This document shows positions 6,782 through 49,968 of a stretch of DNA of 64,000 nt, in pieces (within the stretch, counting starts at the first letter, position 1; every line of letters starts with the position of its first letter). Location of the stretch: positions 1,772,001 to 1,836,000 of the forward strand of contig NZ_CP023865.1 of the NCBI RefSeq assembly GCF_003711105.1, written 5' to 3'. The stretch is from Actinoplanes teichomyceticus ATCC 31121. Its GTDB lineage: Bacteria; Actinomycetota; Actinomycetes; Mycobacteriales; Micromonosporaceae. The notes beneath the pieces are model-generated. The model was not told the origin of the DNA. It made no database searches and was given only the letters and a program-made list of their open reading frames with translations. Both the position numbers and the translations under genes were made by a program.

Positions 6782-9496
6782 GTGTCGCCGCGAGCCGACG
6801 ACGAGACACCGCGCCGGGGCAATTCGCCCCGGCGCGGTGCGTCCCGTGCCGTCCCCGCCGAGGGACCCGACGAGCCCGAGCGCGCTGAGCGGCGCGGTTT
6901 CTCCAGCATCGGGGAGGCGCGGGCGTACACGCCGCGCGGCCGCACGGTGGCCGAACGCGGTCGCACCCCGCGCACCGGGCGCACCACGGACCCGTTCCGG
7001 CCGGCGTTGCAGGTGGTCGAGGGCGGCGACGGCGGGCCGCGGCCACGTCAGCGCGGTACGCGCACCGATGAGCCGCCGGCCGGCGGCCGCGAACCCCGCG
7101 AGGCGGGAATCCCGGGCCGGGACCGCCGGGAGACGGGCGCTGCGGGCCGGGACCGCCGGGAGGCGGGGGCCGCGGGGCGGGAGGCGGGCGCTGCGAGCCG
7201 GGACCGCCGGGAGGCGGGGACCGCGGGCCGCGAGGCGGGCGCTGCGAGCCGGGAGCGCCGGGAGGCGGGGACCGCGGGCCGCGAGGCGGGCGCTGCGGCC
7301 CGGGAGCGCCGCGAGGCGGGCACCGGGGGCCGGGAGCGGCGGGAGGCGGGGACCGCGGCCCGCGAGACGGGCATTGCGGCCCGTGAACGCCGGGAGTCCG
7401 GGACCGCGGCCCGTGAACGCCGGGAAGCCCGCGGCACGGGCGCGGCCGGCCGGGAGCGCCGCGAGGCCGGGGGCGCCGGGTGGGAGCGCCGGGAGCCGCG
7501 CGAGGCCGCCGGGAAGGACCGGGCGCGGCGGGAGCCGGCCGGTCGCACCCGACAGGCGCGCGAGCGGCGGGCGGACGAGCGTGACCACCCCCGCGTACGC
7601 CGTACGGCCGAGCCGGCCCGGTCGGGCGCCGGCCGTACCGGGAAGCAGGAACCCGGACCACGGCGCCGGGTGACCGATCCGCCCGGTCGTGGGCCGGGCC
7701 GGGAGCCGGCTCGCCGGCCGCGGCCGGTGCCCGCCGAACCACCCCGGCTGGCCAACAGCACCCGCCGGCTGCGGATCGGCACGGTGCTGGCGCTCTCCTT
7801 GTTCGTGATGATCGGGGTACGCCTGGTGGTGTTGCAGGTGGCGACCTCGCCGGCCGAGGTGCAGAGCCTGGTCAAGCTGCGCGAGAAGCGGTTGAGCACG
7901 GTCGAGCTGCCGGCGCCGCGGGGCAGCATCATGGACCGCAACGGCGACATCCTGGCCAACAGCGTCGAGGCGCGCTACATCTACGCCGACCCGGAGAACC
8001 CGGAGCTGCAGCGGAACCTGGCCGCCACGGCCGCGAAACTGGCCCCGCTGCTCGCCGTCCCGGCCTCCGAGCTGGCCGAGAACATGCAGCGTAAGCAGGT
8101 GATGGGCACCTGGCTGCGGTTCCGCTACCTGGCCCGGGGGGTGGACGTCTCGGTCGCCGACAAGATCGAGGACCTGGGTCTGAAGGGCATCTACACGCAC
8201 ATCGACGAGCGGCGGGACGTGCCCGGCAAGGACCTGGCGGCGAACCTGATCGGCTTCACCAGCGGCGACGGCCACGGCCTGGTGGGCCTGGAGGCGCGCT
8301 ACGACGACCTGCTGCACGGCACCGACGGCAAGCGGGTCTTCGAGACCGGCAAGGGAAGCCTGAACAAGCCCATCCCGGGCGGCTACGAGCAGAACACCCC
8401 GGCCAAGCCGGGCAGTTCGCTGAAGCTGACCATCGACCGCTGGGTGCAGTTCAACGCCCAGCGGGTCCTGGACGCCGAGGCGCAGCGCAACCACGCCACG
8501 GTGGCCGGCGCGGTGATCCTCGACGTGCGGACCGGTGAGGTGCTGGCCCAGGCCAGCTACCCGTTCTACAACGCGGCCAAGCCGCTGGACGCCGACCCGT
8601 CCGACCGGATCGACGTGCCGACCAGCGTGGTCACCGACCCGGGCTCCAGCCACAAGGCGTTCGTGCTGGGCGCGGCTCTGCAGGAGGGCATCGTCACGCC
8701 GGAGTCGACGCAGGAGGTCGCGCCGGCGATCGAGCGCGGCGGCACCGTCTTCAAGGACGGCCACCCGCGGAAGAAGGGCACCAAGCTGACGTTGGCCGGG
8801 ATCATGGCCTACTCGTCGAACGTGGGGACCATCCTGATCGGCGAGAAGCTCGGCAAGGAGAAGCTCTACGAGTACCAGAAGAAGTTCGGGCTGGGCCAGG
8901 CGACCGGTGAGGGTATGCCCGGCGAGGCGTCCGGGATGCTGCTGCCGCCGGACAAGTGGAGCGGCTCGGCGTACGGGTCGGTGCCGATCGGGCACAGCGT
9001 GTCCGCGACGCTGGTGCAGATGGCGGCCGGCTACGGCGCGATCGCCAACGACGGCGTCTACATCCAGCCGCACCTGATCAAGTCGACCGTCTCCGGGATC
9101 GACGGCAAGGAGACCCCGGTCGCCGCGCCGAAGACCCACCGGGTGCTGGACGCCGAGGTGGCGTCGCAGCTGCGCACCATGATGGAGGCGGTGGTCGAGG
9201 ACAGGGAGGGCACCGGCACCAAGGCGCAGGTCCCGGACTACCGGGTGGCGGGCAAGACCGGCACCGGCAACATGCTCGTCGACGGGCAGTACACCAGCCA
9301 CAACGCGAGCTCGTTCGTCGGGATGGCGCCGGCCGAGAACCCGCGGTACGTCATCGCGGTGTCGATGGACGTCCCCAAGGGCTCCGGCGGGGAGGTGGCC
9401 GGCCCGGCCTTCGCCCAGATGATGTCCTACACCCTGCTTCACTACTTTGTGCCACCGTCCACCACGAAACCGCCAACCTTCAAGATCCATGGATGA
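6782..9496 (+). CDS. ftsI: Septal penicillin-binding protein FtsI/PBP3 with repeat-rich cytoplasmic extension
   Basis: FtsI is the transpeptidase that cross-links septal peptidoglycan with FtsW. The GTG at 6782 gives 904 residues. A membrane helix lies at about 332-352, followed by the PBP dimerisation domain (EKRLSTVELPAPRGSIMDRNG) and a transpeptidase domain with SxxK (Ser622-Lys625), SxN (Ser678-Asn680) and KTG (825-827), so it should be active. The first 330 residues are extraordinary for FtsI: residues about 100-260 are a run of R-E-R-R-E-A-G-(T/A)-A-like units rich in Arg, Glu, Ala and Gly. The gene starts three bases after ftsL. A shorter start is possible but no good internal site was seen near the helix. 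Confidence 0.93.
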   Translation: MSPRADDETPRRGNSPRRGASRAVPAEGPDEPERAERRGFSSIGEARAYTPRGRTVAERGRTPRTGRTTDPFRPALQVVEGGDGGPRPRQRGTRTDEPPAGGREPREAGIPGRDRRETGAAGRDRREAGAAGREAGAASRDRREAGTAGREAGAASRERREAGTAGREAGAAARERREAGTGGRERREAGTAARETGIAARERRESGTAARERREARGTGAAGRERREAGGAGWERREPREAAGKDRARREPAGRTRQARERRADERDHPRVRRTAEPARSGAGRTGKQEPGPRRRVTDPPGRGPGREPARRPRPVPAEPPRLANSTRRLRIGTVLALSLFVMIGVRLVVLQVATSPAEVQSLVKLREKRLSTVELPAPRGSIMDRNGDILANSVEARYIYADPENPELQRNLAATAAKLAPLLAVPASELAENMQRKQVMGTWLRFRYLARGVDVSVADKIEDLGLKGIYTHIDERRDVPGKDLAANLIGFTSGDGHGLVGLEARYDDLLHGTDGKRVFETGKGSLNKPIPGGYEQNTPAKPGSSLKLTIDRWVQFNAQRVLDAEAQRNHATVAGAVILDVRTGEVLAQASYPFYNAAKPLDADPSDRIDVPTSVVTDPGSSHKAFVLGAALQEGIVTPESTQEVAPAIERGGTVFKDGHPRKKGTKLTLAGIMAYSSNVGTILIGEKLGKEKLYEYQKKFGLGQATGEGMPGEASGMLLPPDKWSGSAYGSVPIGHSVSATLVQMAAGYGAIANDGVYIQPHLIKSTVSGIDGKETPVAAPKTHRVLDAEVASQLRTMMEAVVEDREGTGTKAQVPDYRVAGKTGTGNMLVDGQYTSHNASSFVGMAPAENPRYVIAVSMDVPKGSGGEVAGPAFAQMMSYTLLHYFVPPSTTKPPTFKIHG
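7084..7575 (+). repeat. In-frame repeat region of ftsI encoding R-E-A-G-rich units
   Basis: A partly 51-base periodic repeat (17-residue units, each roughly two copies of R-[ED]-R-R-E-A-G-T-A) lies inside the ftsI coding frame. Its unit length is a multiple of three, unlike the two non-coding arrays in this window, which supports it being translated. Confidence 0.7.
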
Positions 9497-24407: not shown

Positions 24408-24468
24408 CCGGCCCTCCACGGGCCTGGCCGGCCGTGCTGTCGCTCGGCCCGACTGACCGGCCGACCGC

Positions 24469-24720
24469 CGCGCGGTCTCTCGGCGGGCTGGACTGCCCGC
24501 GCGGTCTCTCGGCGGGCTGGACTGCCCGCGCGGTCTCTCGGCGGGCTGGACTGCCCGCGCGGTCTCTCGGCGGGCCGGACCGCCCGCGCGGTCCTGTCGG
24601 CCGGATCGCCCGCGCGGTCTCTCGGCGGGCCGGACTGCCCGCGCGGTCTCTCGGCGGGCCGGACTGCCCGCGCGGTCCTGTCGGCCGGATCGCCCGCGCT
24701 GTCCTGTCTCCTGGCCGGAC
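24469..24720. repeat. Non-coding tandem array of 29-bp and 26-bp units
   Basis: Eight units plus a decayed ninth begin with CGCGCGGTC. Six are 29 bases (24469, 24498, 24527, 24556, 24611, 24640) and two are 26 bases (24585, 24669), in the order A-A-A-A-B-A-A-B. Units start CGCGCGGTCTCTCGGCGGGC (A) or CGCGCGGTCCTGTCGGCCGG (B). Both lengths shift the frame, so the array cannot encode a conserved peptide. There are no unique spacers, so it is not a CRISPR. It begins 60 bases after the DUF167 gene. Confidence 0.88.
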
Positions 24721-45877: not shown

Positions 45878-46756
45878 ATGACTTTCGTGGTGATCGGCGG
45901 GACCGGTGTCGACACCGTGGTACCGGTGGCCGGCCTGCCGGTGACCGGCGCCGACTCGGCCCGCCCGCGCGGCCCGATCGAGGACCGTGTCGCGCACACC
46001 GGCGTCTGCGTCGCGCTCGGGCTGCGCGCGCTGGGCGAATCGGTGGTGGTCGTCGACACGGTCGGGGACGACGAGCCGGGCCGGCGGGTGACCGCGGCGT
46101 TCCGCGAGTGGGGCATCCCGCTGCGGGCCGCGCCGGCCCCGGCCGGGACCCGGCGGGCGGTCAACCTGATGAGCCCGGACGGGCGGCGGCTGTCCCTGTA
46201 CGACGGCCGGGACGTCCCCGGCTACCGGCTTGCGCGGCGGTGGTACACACCGCTGCCGCCCGGGACCCGCCACGTGCACGTCACCATCATGGACTGGGCC
46301 CGGCACCTGCTGCCCGAGCTGCGCGCGGCGGGCGTGACGGTCTCCACCGACCTGCACGACTGGGACGGGGAAAATCCGTACCACCGGGACTTCGCCCTCG
46401 GCGCCGACCTGGTGTTCGTCAGCGCGGTGCAGCTCGCCCCCGGCGCGGCCGGCCGGATCCTCGCCGAGGGGGTGGCCTCGCGGGTCGTGGTGACGCACGG
46501 CGCCGGTGGGGCGGACCTGGTCACCCGGGACGGCACGGCGCACCGGGACGCGGTGGACCCGGGAGCGCCGATCGTGGACACCAACGGGGCCGGGGACGCG
46601 TTCGCCGCCGCCTTCCTGGCCGCCTGGACGGCCGGGCGCGGCGACGGCGACTGTCTCACCGACGGGGTGATCGCCGGGGGGTACGCCTGCACCCGACCGG
46701 TCGGCGCGGACTCCTTCGTCACCCGGGCGGAACTTCTCAGCCGGCGCCCCCGCTGA
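45878..46756 (+). CDS. PfkB family carbohydrate/nucleoside kinase
   Basis: The 292-residue protein has the ribokinase fold with the N-terminal VVIGGTGVDTVVPV, GVCVALGLRALGESVVVVDTVGDD and the C-terminal PfkB signature DTNGAGDAFAAAF with catalytic Asp240. The sugar substrate cannot be told from sequence. The ATG at 45878 has no ribosome site, but TACCTT (45866-45871) ends six bases before it, so the mRNA may be leaderless. The last 20 bases overlap the convergent repeat-peptide gene. Confidence 0.9.
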   Translation: MTFVVIGGTGVDTVVPVAGLPVTGADSARPRGPIEDRVAHTGVCVALGLRALGESVVVVDTVGDDEPGRRVTAAFREWGIPLRAAPAPAGTRRAVNLMSPDGRRLSLYDGRDVPGYRLARRWYTPLPPGTRHVHVTIMDWARHLLPELRAAGVTVSTDLHDWDGENPYHRDFALGADLVFVSAVQLAPGAAGRILAEGVASRVVVTHGAGGADLVTRDGTAHRDAVDPGAPIVDTNGAGDAFAAAFLAAWTAGRGDGDCLTDGVIAGGYACTRPVGADSFVTRAELLSRRPR

Positions 46757-47006
46757 GCAGCGCGACGCCGCTGCCCGGGGTCAGCAGCGACACGCCGCTG
46801 CCGGGCTCCAGCAGGGACACGCCGCTGCCGGGCTCCAGCAGGGACACGCCGCCGCCGGGGTTCAGCAGCGAGACGCCGCCCGGATGTGGCCGGGACGCCT
46901 CGGGGCCCTTGGCCGCGGCCGCCGCCGGGCCGGCCGCCAGGAATGCGGCGCCCGCCGCCACGGCCAGCACCACCGCTGCCCGGAATCCACCACGCCGGAT
47001 CGCCAT
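46737..47006 (-). CDS. Small secreted protein with five GVSLL-type nonapeptide repeats
   Basis: The ATG at 47006 follows GGAGGAGATC and encodes 89 residues: a signal peptide (about residues 1-31, basic start then a hydrophobic Ala/Val-rich core, cut near AAAAA-KGPEA), a short spacer, and five tandem units of nine residues: GVSLLNPGG, GVSLLEPGS twice, GVSLLTPGS and a degenerate GVALLSGGA. The DNA repeat is 27 bases. No Cys, no sortase signal and no known domain is present. It is divergent from a MocR-type regulator with 96 bases between them. A structural, adhesive or signalling peptide is conceivable but unproven. No matching family comes to mind. Confidence 0.8.
   Translation of the reverse strand: MAIRRGGFRAAVVLAVAAGAAFLAAGPAAAAAKGPEASRPHPGGVSLLNPGGGVSLLEPGSGVSLLEPGSGVSLLTPGSGVALLSGGAG
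46744..46872 (-). repeat. 27-bp in-frame tandem repeat in the secreted peptide gene
   Basis: Four near-identical 27-base units plus a diverged fifth encode the GVSLL-x-PG-x repeats. Conservation at protein level, with substitutions N, E, E, T at the sixth position, suggests selection on the peptide. Confidence 0.75.
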
Positions 47007-47072
47007 GCCGATCTCCTCCGCTCCCCGCTGAATGCTCCGGCCTGAGCGTAAGCGCACGGTCACGAGCTCCGG

Positions 47073-47095
47073 CTATATCGGATTGTCTATACCGT
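47073..47095. promoter_or_regulatory. Promoter/operator of the second MocR gene
   Basis: CTATATCGG (47073-47081) and CTATACCGT (47087-47095) are direct repeats 14 bases apart. TACCGT (47090-47095) fits a TANNNT -10 box ending seven bases before the GTG at 47103, so the regulator may be leaderless and autoregulated; the divergent peptide gene shares the region. Confidence 0.45.
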
Positions 47096-47102
47096 CGGGG
47101 CC

Positions 47103-48491
47103 GTGGATCTGGTGATCGAGGCCGGCGCGGGCTCCGGCGGGACGACGGCGGCGGTGTACCGGGCGTTGCGGGCGGCCATCGTGGACGGGCGGCTGCCGGC
47201 CGGGCACCGGTTGCCGGCCAGCCGGGCGCTCGCCGCCGACCTGGGCGTGTCGCGCGGCAGCGTGGCCGGGGCGTACGAGCGGCTGGTGGCCGAGGGGCAC
47301 CTGACCGCCCGGGTCGGCGCCGGGACGTTCGTGGCCCCGACCCGCTCGCCGCGGCAGGCGCCGCGATCGGTTCCGGACCCGCTGCGCCCGCGCGCCGGGT
47401 GGACCTTCGCGCCGGTGCCGACCAGCGGGGCGCAGCCGCCGCCACGGTACGACTTCCGGGTCGGCATCCCGGACGCGCGGCTGTTCCCGTTCGACACCTG
47501 GCGCCGGATGGTCACGGCGGAGCTGCGGCTGCGTGCCCACGGCCCGGGGACGTACGCCGATCCGTACGGCCATCCGGCCCTGCGCGCCGCGATCGCCCGC
47601 TACCTGGGCTACGCCCGCTCACTGCCGGCCACCGCCGACGACGTGCTGGTCACCAACAGCGCCCAGCACGCGCTCGACCTGATCGGCCGGGTGCTGCTGC
47701 GCCCCGGCGACGTGGTGGCGGTCGAGGAGCCCGGCTACCCGCCGGCCCGTGACCTGTTTCTGTCGCTCGGCGCCCGGGTGACCGGGGTGCCGGTGGACGA
47801 GCACGGCCTGGTCGTGGACCGGCTGCCGGCACACGCCCGGATCGTCTACGTCACCCCGTCGCACCAGTTCCCGCTCGGCCCGGTGCTCAGCCTGGACCGG
47901 CGCCGGCAGCTGCTGGACTGGGCGCGGCGGCGGCAGAGCGCGATCGTCGAGGACGACTACGACAGCGAGTTCCGGTTCGGCGCCCGGCCGCTGGAGCCGC
48001 TGCGCGCGCTGGACCGCTGCGGGCGGGTGCTCTACGTGGGGACGTTTTCCAAGATCATGCTGCCGGCCGTCCGTACCGGCTTCCTGCTCACCCCGCCCGC
48101 GCTGCGCCCGGCGCTGGCCGCGGCCCGGCAGCTCGGCGACGGACACGGCCACCTGGCGACGCAGGCCGCCCTGGCCCGGTTCATCGACGAGGGCCAGCTG
48201 GCCCGGCACGTGCGCCGGGCCCGCCGGGAGTACGCCGCCCGGCACGCCCGGATCGTCGCCGCCCTGCGCCGGATGCCGCGGCTGACGGTGCTGCCCTCGG
48301 CGGCCGGGCTGCACGTGACCGCGCTGCTGCGCGGACCCGCCGACATCTTCGCCGAGGCCACGGCGCGTGGCCTAGCGATCGAGGACCTGCCCCGGTACGG
48401 CGGCGACCGGCCGGGTATCGTCCTGGGCTTCGGGGCGGTCGATCCGGTCACCGTCGACGAGGGGCTGGCGGTCCTGGCCGGGCTCCTCTGA
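47103..48491 (+). CDS. MocR-type PLP-dependent transcriptional regulator (second)
   Basis: The 462 residues comprise a GntR winged helix (about residues 14-80; LPASRALAADLGVSRGSVAGAYERL) and an aminotransferase-like domain with AVEEPGYPPARDLF, IVEDDYDSEFRF and PLP lysine Lys317 in VGTFSKIMLPAVRTG. It stands between the divergent secreted repeat peptide and the convergent amino-acid permease, with which it overlaps over 120 bases, and could control either. Many MocR proteins govern amino-acid or vitamin B6 genes. Confidence 0.92.
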   Translation: MDLVIEAGAGSGGTTAAVYRALRAAIVDGRLPAGHRLPASRALAADLGVSRGSVAGAYERLVAEGHLTARVGAGTFVAPTRSPRQAPRSVPDPLRPRAGWTFAPVPTSGAQPPPRYDFRVGIPDARLFPFDTWRRMVTAELRLRAHGPGTYADPYGHPALRAAIARYLGYARSLPATADDVLVTNSAQHALDLIGRVLLRPGDVVAVEEPGYPPARDLFLSLGARVTGVPVDEHGLVVDRLPAHARIVYVTPSHQFPLGPVLSLDRRRQLLDWARRRQSAIVEDDYDSEFRFGARPLEPLRALDRCGRVLYVGTFSKIMLPAVRTGFLLTPPALRPALAAARQLGDGHGHLATQAALARFIDEGQLARHVRRARREYAARHARIVAALRRMPRLTVLPSAAGLHVTALLRGPADIFAEATARGLAIEDLPRYGGDRPGIVLGFGAVDPVTVDEGLAVLAGLL

Positions 48492-49715
48492 CGCCGCCCG
48501 GCGGTTCCGGCCCGGCCGCTTCGACACCGCCTGGTAGATCAGCGCGCCGGCGGCGAAGACCAGGCTCAGCAGCGCCGGCGGCCCGTTCAGCCAGAGCAGC
48601 ACGCTGACCGCCACGAACGCCACCCCGGCCACCACCCGCGACCAGCCGCGCGGCAGCAGGCGCAGGGCCGCCGCCGTGCCCAGCACGTAGACCAGCGTGA
48701 AGCAGCCGGTCACCAGCAGCGTCGAGGTGTGCAGGCCGATCGGCAGCAGCGCGCACCCGATGCTGGCGGCGAAGATGAAGCTGAGGGAGCGGCGCCGGCC
48801 CCCGAACACCCGGGCCGGCAGCGCGCCGTCCCGGGCCAGCGCCGCCCCGAGCCGGCTGGCCCCGGCGAAGTACGCGTTCACCGCGCCGAGCGTGAGCACC
48901 ACCGCGACCACCGCGGTGAGCGTGCGGACCGGACCGCCCAGGCCGATCGCCAGCAGGTCGGCCAGCGGCGCCCGGCTGCCGGCCAGCGCCGGGCCCAGGG
49001 CGAGCACGCTGACCGCGGCCACCGCCAGATAGAGGACACCGACCACGGCGACCGCGATCAGCGTGGCGCGGGGCACGTCCCGGCGCGGGTCGCGGTACTC
49101 CGCCGACAGCGAGGAGAGCGCCTCCCAGCCGGCGAACCCCCAGACCAGGATGGCCGCCGCGGCGCCCACCCCGGACCAGCCGTGCGGGGCGAACGGGGTC
49201 AGGTTGGCCCGGTCCAGGTGCGGCAGCGCGGCCAGCACGGTCAGCACCAGCAGGGCGGCCAGGGCGCCGGTGAGCACCAGCTGGACCCGGCCGGAGACGC
49301 GCAGGCCGAACCAGTTCATCGCGTACGCCACCGCGACGACGGCGAGGAAGGTGAGCAGTTCGGCGGCGCGGCCGCCGCCGAACGCGTCCGCGACGTACCC
49401 GCCGGTGAACGCGGCGGCGACCGGCGCGCCCAGCGGCACCGCGAAGTAGAAGCACCAGCCGACCGCGGCGGCGGCCCGCCGGCCGAAGGCCATTCCGGCG
49501 TACGTGGCCACCCCGCCGCCGTCCGGGTACCGCGCGCCGAGCGCGGCGAACGTCCAGGCCAGCGGCGCGGAGAGCAGGATCAGGGCGAGCCAGGCGAGCA
49601 GCGCGGCCGGGCCGGCGGCCGCGGCGGCCAGCGCGGGCATGGAGATCAGGCCGGTGCCCAGGACGGCGCCGATGGAGAGCGCGGCGCCCTGGGCGATGGA
49701 GAGTCGGGCGGTCAT
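48372..49715 (-). CDS. APC superfamily amino-acid permease
   Basis: The 447-residue membrane protein has about twelve helices. The first carries GAVLGTGLISMP, the substrate-binding glycine motif of amino-acid/polyamine transporters, and GWEALSSLSAEYRDPRRDVPRA follows helix 6 (conserved blocks over residues 202-223). Substrate unknown. The cytoplasmic C-terminal 40 residues (charged) are encoded antisense to the end of the MocR gene. The ATG at 49715 lies about 40 bases from a palindromic operator. Confidence 0.92.
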   Translation of the reverse strand: MTARLSIAQGAALSIGAVLGTGLISMPALAAAAAGPAALLAWLALILLSAPLAWTFAALGARYPDGGGVATYAGMAFGRRAAAAVGWCFYFAVPLGAPVAAAFTGGYVADAFGGGRAAELLTFLAVVAVAYAMNWFGLRVSGRVQLVLTGALAALLVLTVLAALPHLDRANLTPFAPHGWSGVGAAAAILVWGFAGWEALSSLSAEYRDPRRDVPRATLIAVAVVGVLYLAVAAVSVLALGPALAGSRAPLADLLAIGLGGPVRTLTAVVAVVLTLGAVNAYFAGASRLGAALARDGALPARVFGGRRRSLSFIFAASIGCALLPIGLHTSTLLVTGCFTLVYVLGTAAALRLLPRGWSRVVAGVAFVAVSVLLWLNGPPALLSLVFAAGALIYQAVSKRPGRNRRAASEEPGQDRQPLVDGDRIDRPEAQDDTRPVAAVPGQVLDR

Positions 49716-49788: not shown

Positions 49789-49822
49789 GCCGCCGGGCAA
49801 CCTCCGGCCGGACCGTCGGAAA

Positions 49823-49968
49823 CCCAGGTCGGCGCCGCGCCGCCGTTCGGTCACCGCCGAGTCGTCAAAAACCCAGCTTGGCGCCGCGCCGCCGTTCGGT
49901 CACCGCCGGGTCGTCAAAAACCCAGCTTGGCGCCGCGCAGCCGCTCGGTCACCGCCGGGTCGCCGTCG
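49823..49968. repeat. 49-bp tandem triplication of a gene's 3' end
   Basis: Three copies starting at 49823, 49872 and 49921 share CCCAGCTTGGCGCCGCGC-type sequence and the following CGGTCACCGCC(G/A)(G)GTCG. The third copy contains the last codons and stop of the TIGR03085-like gene; the other two lie beyond its stop as non-coding copies. Copy 1 is the most diverged. Confidence 0.85.

Follow-up and report, generated by a model that had tools for sequence, protein, structure and literature searches.

Chaplins and similar coat peptides of filamentous actinomycetes are short, exported and hydrophobic, and the yeast alpha-factor precursor consists of a signal peptide followed by a repeated conserved core. 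Regulators of the MocR type are frequently self-repressors that switch on a divergent target, as described in the available portion of PMC5320631, and GabR uses direct repeats of ATACCA, as given in the available portion of PMC4494728. In this study, we analyzed a stretch of 64,000 nucleotides of Actinoplanes teichomyceticus ATCC 31121 (contig NZ_CP023865.1, positions 1,772,001 to 1,836,000; hereafter the window), in which a gene for a short VSLL-repeat peptide (46737..47006, minus strand) lies divergent from mocR (47103..48491, plus strand), encoding a PdxR-like GntR/aminotransferase regulator of 462 amino acids. As in the MocR/GabR/PdxR divergons, the regulator is divergent from its presumed target and ATACC-like direct-repeat boxes are present (compared with the GabR boxes in the available portion of PMC4494728), and the window regulator scores above the NCBIfam cut-off for PdxR (NF052282; 398.8 bits, cut-off 320). 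Unlike in those systems, the presumed target is a short orphan peptide, and no vitamin B6, GABA or taurine gene was seen among the neighbors read (pfkB, fadD, permease). The N7-spaced repeat of the locus was set against the GabR motif, a comparison that covers part of the published MocR motifs.

The peptide gene comprises 89 codons plus a stop codon, and 96 bases lie between its ATG (47006) and the GTG (47103) of mocR, as a preceding sequence-only reading of the window had stated for the shared control region. A ribosome-binding site, GGAGGAG (47013..47019, minus strand), is located upstream of the ATG. The product reads MAIRRGGFRAAVVLAVAAGAAFLAAGPAAAAAKGPEASRPHPG followed by five nine-residue units with VSLL or VALL (46743..46877, minus strand; from the translation and the tandem array), in the order GVSLLNPGG, GVSLLEPGS, GVSLLEPGS, GVSLLTPGS and GVALLSGGA, and a closing G. 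At the DNA level, Tandem Repeats Finder detected a 27-base array of 4.6 copies at 46756-46879. The N-terminus opens with an n-region (MAIRRGGFR), continues with a hydrophobic stretch and ends in an Ala-rich c-region before the units. This signal-peptide-like start covers about residues 1-32 (46911..47006, minus strand), with extent and cleavage site set by eye, and an AlphaFold model has one N-terminal helix (residues 6-30) followed by coil (mean pLDDT 55.9). The 89-residue frame with ribosome site, signal-like start and five in-frame units was thereby recovered as first read. Elsewhere in the window, a 29-base tandem array of 8.3 copies (90% matches) is found at 24468-24703, and clustered GC-rich arrays with periods of 30, 51 and 81 bases at 7113-7514.

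Searches with the window peptide gave no Pfam match up to E 1 and no NCBIfam match to E 0.001; the sole PHROGs match (E 0.34) was obtained for its relative P0002, and the sole match among PDB sequences had E 0.81. Accordingly, no membership in a family described in these collections was found, in line with the earlier statement that no described family has this repeat, and among the titles listed by a literature search, none concerns the peptide. The product is probably exported, on the evidence of signal-peptide-like starts judged by eye. The Tat substrate consensus [ST]RRx[FLI] had no match in the ten members, and the G078 member also has no RR pair.

The peptide gene was detected in ten of 67 genus genomes, in each of them divergent from mocR, and was recognized in no further genome among 354 of the family. 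In these ten genomes MocR identity is also highest, at 81% or above (for G032 over part of mocR). All ten proteins begin with M-x-[IM]-R-[RP]-G and their genes have a purine-rich ribosome site before the start, the nine homologues of the window peptide have a hydrophobic signal-like start, and the gap to mocR is 93-103 bases in the nine genomes with intact mocR (for G014 measured from the second ATG). In order of length, the members have 89 amino acids with five VSLL or VALL units (window), 72 with four (G014), 63 with four (G016), 51 with three (G066 and G032), 41 with two (G081), 40 with three (G023) and 34 with one (G073, G010 and G078). Both questions raised in the sequence-only reading were thereby answered: the repeat number varies from five units to one, and mocR stays adjacent in 10/10 genomes. 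The nine-residue five-fold array, in turn, did not hold as the defining trait, as three members carry a single VSLL in 34 residues and the spacing is inconstant.

In the genus, the profile search (up to 88 candidates scored per genome) returned the ten loci, with the next best match no better than E 5.8e-4. In the 354 family genomes, where the best 16 first-look candidates per genome were scored, the ten known loci were accompanied by 20 weaker matches (E 6e-6 to 1e-4), all in open frames of at least 289 residues. Ten of these were read by eye and rejected: seven resemble the twin-arginine-type N-terminus of a single longer protein, one resembles the N-terminus of a trypsin-like protein, and the remaining two are located within another longer protein of secreted type. 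A pattern scan of the genome contigs gave 14 stretches, three of them relatives; three orthologous loci belong to A. palleronii, A. liguriensis and A. regularis. No second VSLL array was seen by matched letters in the ten peptide genomes with a narrow pattern that failed to pick up the known arrays in G014, G032 and G081, and a search of plasmids gave no match. A collection of 5.8 billion proteins returned one of the nine orthologues, from Actinoplanes sp. L3-i22; three unreturned ones are within the allowed length range and five shorter ones outside it. With the 40-residue G023 member as query, nothing was returned from this collection. Very short exported peptides are easily overlooked by such searches. 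The gene was found in one clade only.

Downstream, the peptide gene is convergent with a neighbor outside the unit, a pfkB-type kinase gene (45878..46756, plus strand), and the two frames overlap by 20 bases (46737-46756). High-GC DNA is rich in long chance frames, and the peptide frame might accordingly have no product and merely lie antisense to the pfkB end. This we consider hardly credible: the frame is conserved in ten genomes and has a codon-position pattern of its own, the overlap is confined to the 20 bases, and in the fadD-mocR interval of G066 (L082) only two pfkB scraps of 15-16 residues were found, beside an intact peptide gene, which speaks against a mere pfkB antisense frame. The chance frame without homologues, named in the first reading as the outcome that would count against it, thereby gives way to nine homologues and to a peptide that outlives pfkB. 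ORF 46737-47006 is very likely a real gene. We also weighed a role as attenuator or leader and dismissed it, since fadD, which follows next on this strand, lies on the far side of pfkB. On the other side, an amino-acid permease ORF (48372..49715, minus strand) is convergent with mocR. This neighbor, noted earlier beyond mocR, was seen in 8/10 peptide genomes within the stretches fetched, so its presence stood, but not a constant partnership, as in G014 the stretch of about 4.2 kb that follows mocR yielded no permease. Just upstream of the permease ORF, at 49820-49962, a 49-base unit is repeated 2.9 times with 94% matches.

Across the ten genomes, 27 units were compared. V and both L residues occur in 27/27 units and S in 25/27 (A in two), and the codons vary silently (GTG/GTC/GTT for V; TCG/TCC/TCA, once AGC, for S; CTG/CTA/CTT/TTG and CTG/CTC for the two L). 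Comparison of all pairs gave pS 0.443 and pN 0.041, for units picked by the pattern V[SA]LL and hence biased towards conservation. Between units of one genome, at least 22 silent changes were counted vs two replacement changes (binomial 3.3e-9, assuming that two thirds of changes are replacing), and no decayed unit copies were found by eye in the ten sequences. With start, ribosome site and VSLL kept in ten genomes, these counts agree with the earlier suggestion of a translated and selected product. Within the window peptide, changes do cluster at a single position, as first read (N, E, E, T, S), but between species the entire linker varies and may be lacking altogether. Linkers are 5, 4 or 0 residues long, giving unit spacings of 9, 8 or 4, and read NPGG, EPGS, TPGS, TNPA or GSPA, or are absent (VSLLVSLL). 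Since VSLL is conserved among variable linkers, the selected element is VSLL and not the nonapeptide. Judged from these alignments, VSLL is under selection and its copy number has changed within the clade. The signal region of six genomes (15 pairs) had a pooled pS of 0.34 and pN of 0.17, with one pair at a pN/pS of 1.87, and in the three 34-residue members, which differ by few changes, pN/pS lay between about 0.5 and 1.4, with no clear selection; constraint on the signal region thus appears milder than on the units.

One explanation for the peptide is a surface fibre, adhesive or amyloid-like coat, in which VSLL strands joined by Pro/Gly/Asn turns would self-assemble on the wall in the manner of chaplins. 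The VSLL peptide resembles chaplins in being short, probably exported and hydrophobic, and the signal-like start, the hydrophobic units and the turn-forming linkers (PG, NP, SP, GG) of the longer members would suit such a coat. Furthermore, Actinoplanes makes cell-wall-anchored hydrophobic and spore-surface proteins, according to the available portions of PMC13251363 and PMC13293333. The residues themselves point elsewhere. A mere strand would tolerate exchange of I, V and L, whereas V and L of the units differ in 0/1053 pairs; for the h-region, compared in six members, 66/122 of the pairs that include a V, L or I differ. More than hydrophobicity is therefore kept in the units. Unlike in chaplins, the units are tetrapeptides with variable spacing and the peptide is without a Pfam match at E 1 or below. 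The inconstant spacing and the members with a single unit weigh against a regular fibre, and the spacings of 9, 8 and 4 speak for units acting singly. The ten members contain neither the sortase motif L[PA]xTG nor any cysteine, and hence no lipobox, and the AlphaFold model consists of one helix and coil. We therefore regard a coat as unlikely. The identity of VSLL, its loose spacing and its occurrence in one to five copies would better fit a short linear motif than a register-bound fibre.

The preferred reading, a secreted peptide with VSLL as recognition motif, also has to be set against an uncleaved membrane mini-protein, whose start would be a transmembrane helix and whose VSLL would form a re-entrant or exposed tail binding a membrane partner. 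By eye, a single hydrophobic helix makes up nearly all of each 34-residue member; VSLL stands towards the end of this helix, and no evident signal-peptidase site is close to it. The six members with the longest signal (window, G014, G016, G066, G032 and G081), on the other hand, have by eye an Ala-rich c-region like those found at signal peptidase I sites, and we judge the mini-protein improbable. As for a ligand released from a precursor, the VSLL peptide shares with multi-copy signal precursors such as that of alpha-factor a signal peptide followed by variable copies of a conserved core. It differs from them in that no conserved processing site and no dibasic site between copies was found by eye in the linkers, and some copies abut. 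VSLL forms the C-terminus of five members; the other five terminate in GGAG, GGVA or GGAA. Given these mixed C-termini and linkers without a constant processing site, a pheromone cut out of the peptide is not directly supported. A C-terminal PDZ-type ligand, for which an S-x-L end is the motif, was discarded, as this end fits five of ten members only.

The product of mocR matches both PF00392 (61.3 bits) and PF00155 (80.5 bits), the combination that marks MocR proteins. In G032 (L075), the front part of mocR is interrupted by a stretch of N, which adjoins a sequence with the look of a transposase adaptor and is probably an assembly fault. Between the two genes of the window, a direct repeat, TATATCG-N7-TATACCG (47074..47094, plus strand), is the proposed MocR operator, and TACGCT (47045..47050, minus strand) the proposed -10 box of the divergent promoter, both predicted from sequence. 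The peptide locus thereby shows two sequence features of a MocR divergon, a divergent target and an intervening direct repeat. Among the 67 genus genomes, 56 have MocR orthologues at E 1e-100 and 11 have no match there. The slot upstream of mocR was analyzed in 52 of the 56, leaving out G025, G026, G029 and G090 (MocR identity 57% or less), and the repeat in 51 (L073 is too short). YATAYYG-N7-YATA with at most one mismatch precedes mocR in 10/10 peptide loci, 13/13 S8 subtilase loci, 5/8 divergent MFS loci and 0/20 other arrangements (fadD adjacent in 6, pfkB abutting in 3, upstream gene unassigned in 11); as the motif was derived from the promoters in which it was counted, these counts are descriptive and not a test. 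Mononucleotide shuffles reached the motif in 19/10,000 cases. When offsets of 15-32 were searched, a TANNNT box was found 22-24 bases beyond the repeat in 28/28 repeat-bearing promoters. Allowing up to three mismatches, the 21-base repeat form occurs once per peptide genome, with one extra three-mismatch site in G010, and in the window at 47074-47094 only. We infer that MocR uses the repeat as its operator and has, besides mocR, no other evident target than the peptide gene. A strict sigma-70 scan detected no promoter at the locus, which fits, without proving, a promoter lacking a -35 element. The single terminator-like hit of the scan lies on the plus strand and shares bases with the proposed operator; we took it for chance.

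The same promoter architecture stands before other genes in the genus. A secreted-type S8 subtilase with I9 propeptide occupies the slot at 13 loci (L057, L058, L060, L062, L066-L071, L074, L101 and L102), with the same repeat and -10 spacing, and five MFS transporter loci have this repeat and spacing before the transporter. The three MFS rows without repeat (L064, L072 and L100) were put in this class by reading, L100 by the look of its antisense frame only. Pfam searches were run with one subtilase (PF00082 with I9, 386 amino acids) and one MFS protein (PF05977, PF07690); the remaining assignments rest on similarity or reading. Position, orientation, repeat, -10 distance and a signal-like start are common to peptide and subtilase, but the latter is a 386-residue enzyme (in the one of 13 tested) and has no demonstrable sequence relation to the peptide. 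In a MocR tree of 49 rows with midpoint root (L073, L075 and L076 left out), nine peptide genomes (G032 left out) form one group with 100/100 support. In the group nearest to it, fadD or pfkB adjoins mocR and the repeat is missing; the tree places the protease and MFS genomes in the half that does not hold the peptide clade. We read this as one MocR operator-promoter whose output gene may have been exchanged: peptide, S8 protease or MFS transporter.

Shared slot and promoter architecture also raise the question of a leftover, in which the S8 protease was lost, its signal-peptide stub stayed and a neutral 27-base minisatellite grew in the stub. Short tandem arrays are indeed common in the window (41 overlapping rows), and at E 1e-140 the subtilase is unmatched in 9/10 peptide genomes, the tenth holding a 71% relative, vs matched in 43/57 other genus genomes (37/57 at 76% identity or more; 44/67 overall at this E or better). 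Such a loss would not be peculiar to the clade, however, as the protease is unmatched in 14/57 other genomes too, and the nearest clade has no repeat and keeps the protease, where found, at another place. When nine peptide starts (G032 left out) were compared with eleven protease signal peptides, 4 to 29 of 105 background starts scored equal or higher. Neutral growth is also at variance with the silent-to-replacement ratio in VSLL, with start, ribosome site and frame intact in 10/10 genomes, and with G066, which lost pfkB yet keeps the peptide. A leftover seems to us a doubtful explanation, well down the scale of likelihood.

Taken together, the gene, its conservation, the selection on VSLL and the common promoter architecture are supported by the sequences compared. 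Our leading explanation, held tentatively and a little short of probable, is that the peptide is an exported, dedicated target of the divergent MocR and that VSLL is read outside the cell by a specific partner. The PLP-binding MocR, presumably a sensor of amino-acid type, would bind the direct repeat at 47074-47094, repress its own promoter from there and, with ligand, activate the peptide promoter, which would have a -10 box and no recognizable -35. The peptide would exit via Sec by its signal peptide, and VSLL might be read by a receptor, a peptidase or an envelope protein. If each VSLL copy acts alone, copy number and linkers would be free and VSLL fixed. MocR binding and activation, export and the role of VSLL as ligand or signal are what we infer beyond the comparisons. 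We favor a secreted ligand or signal that is recognized through VSLL, and rank signal or ligand before coat peptide and coat peptide before membrane mini-protein. The wider proposal of an exchangeable output of a PLP-type regulator, being a protease, a transporter or, in one clade, an exported VSLL signal or pseudo-substrate ligand, is conceivable, if somewhat unlikely.

If the exchange of output genes behind one promoter is true, the locus would be a clean case of regulatory rewiring. If the VSLL units are a signal or pseudo-substrate, an amino-acid-sensing switch would be wired to an extracellular peptide message. The peptide is paired with a regulator of its own, its selected motif can be counted, and variants of one to five copies exist in nature, so that the role of the peptide and the ligand of MocR are directly testable.
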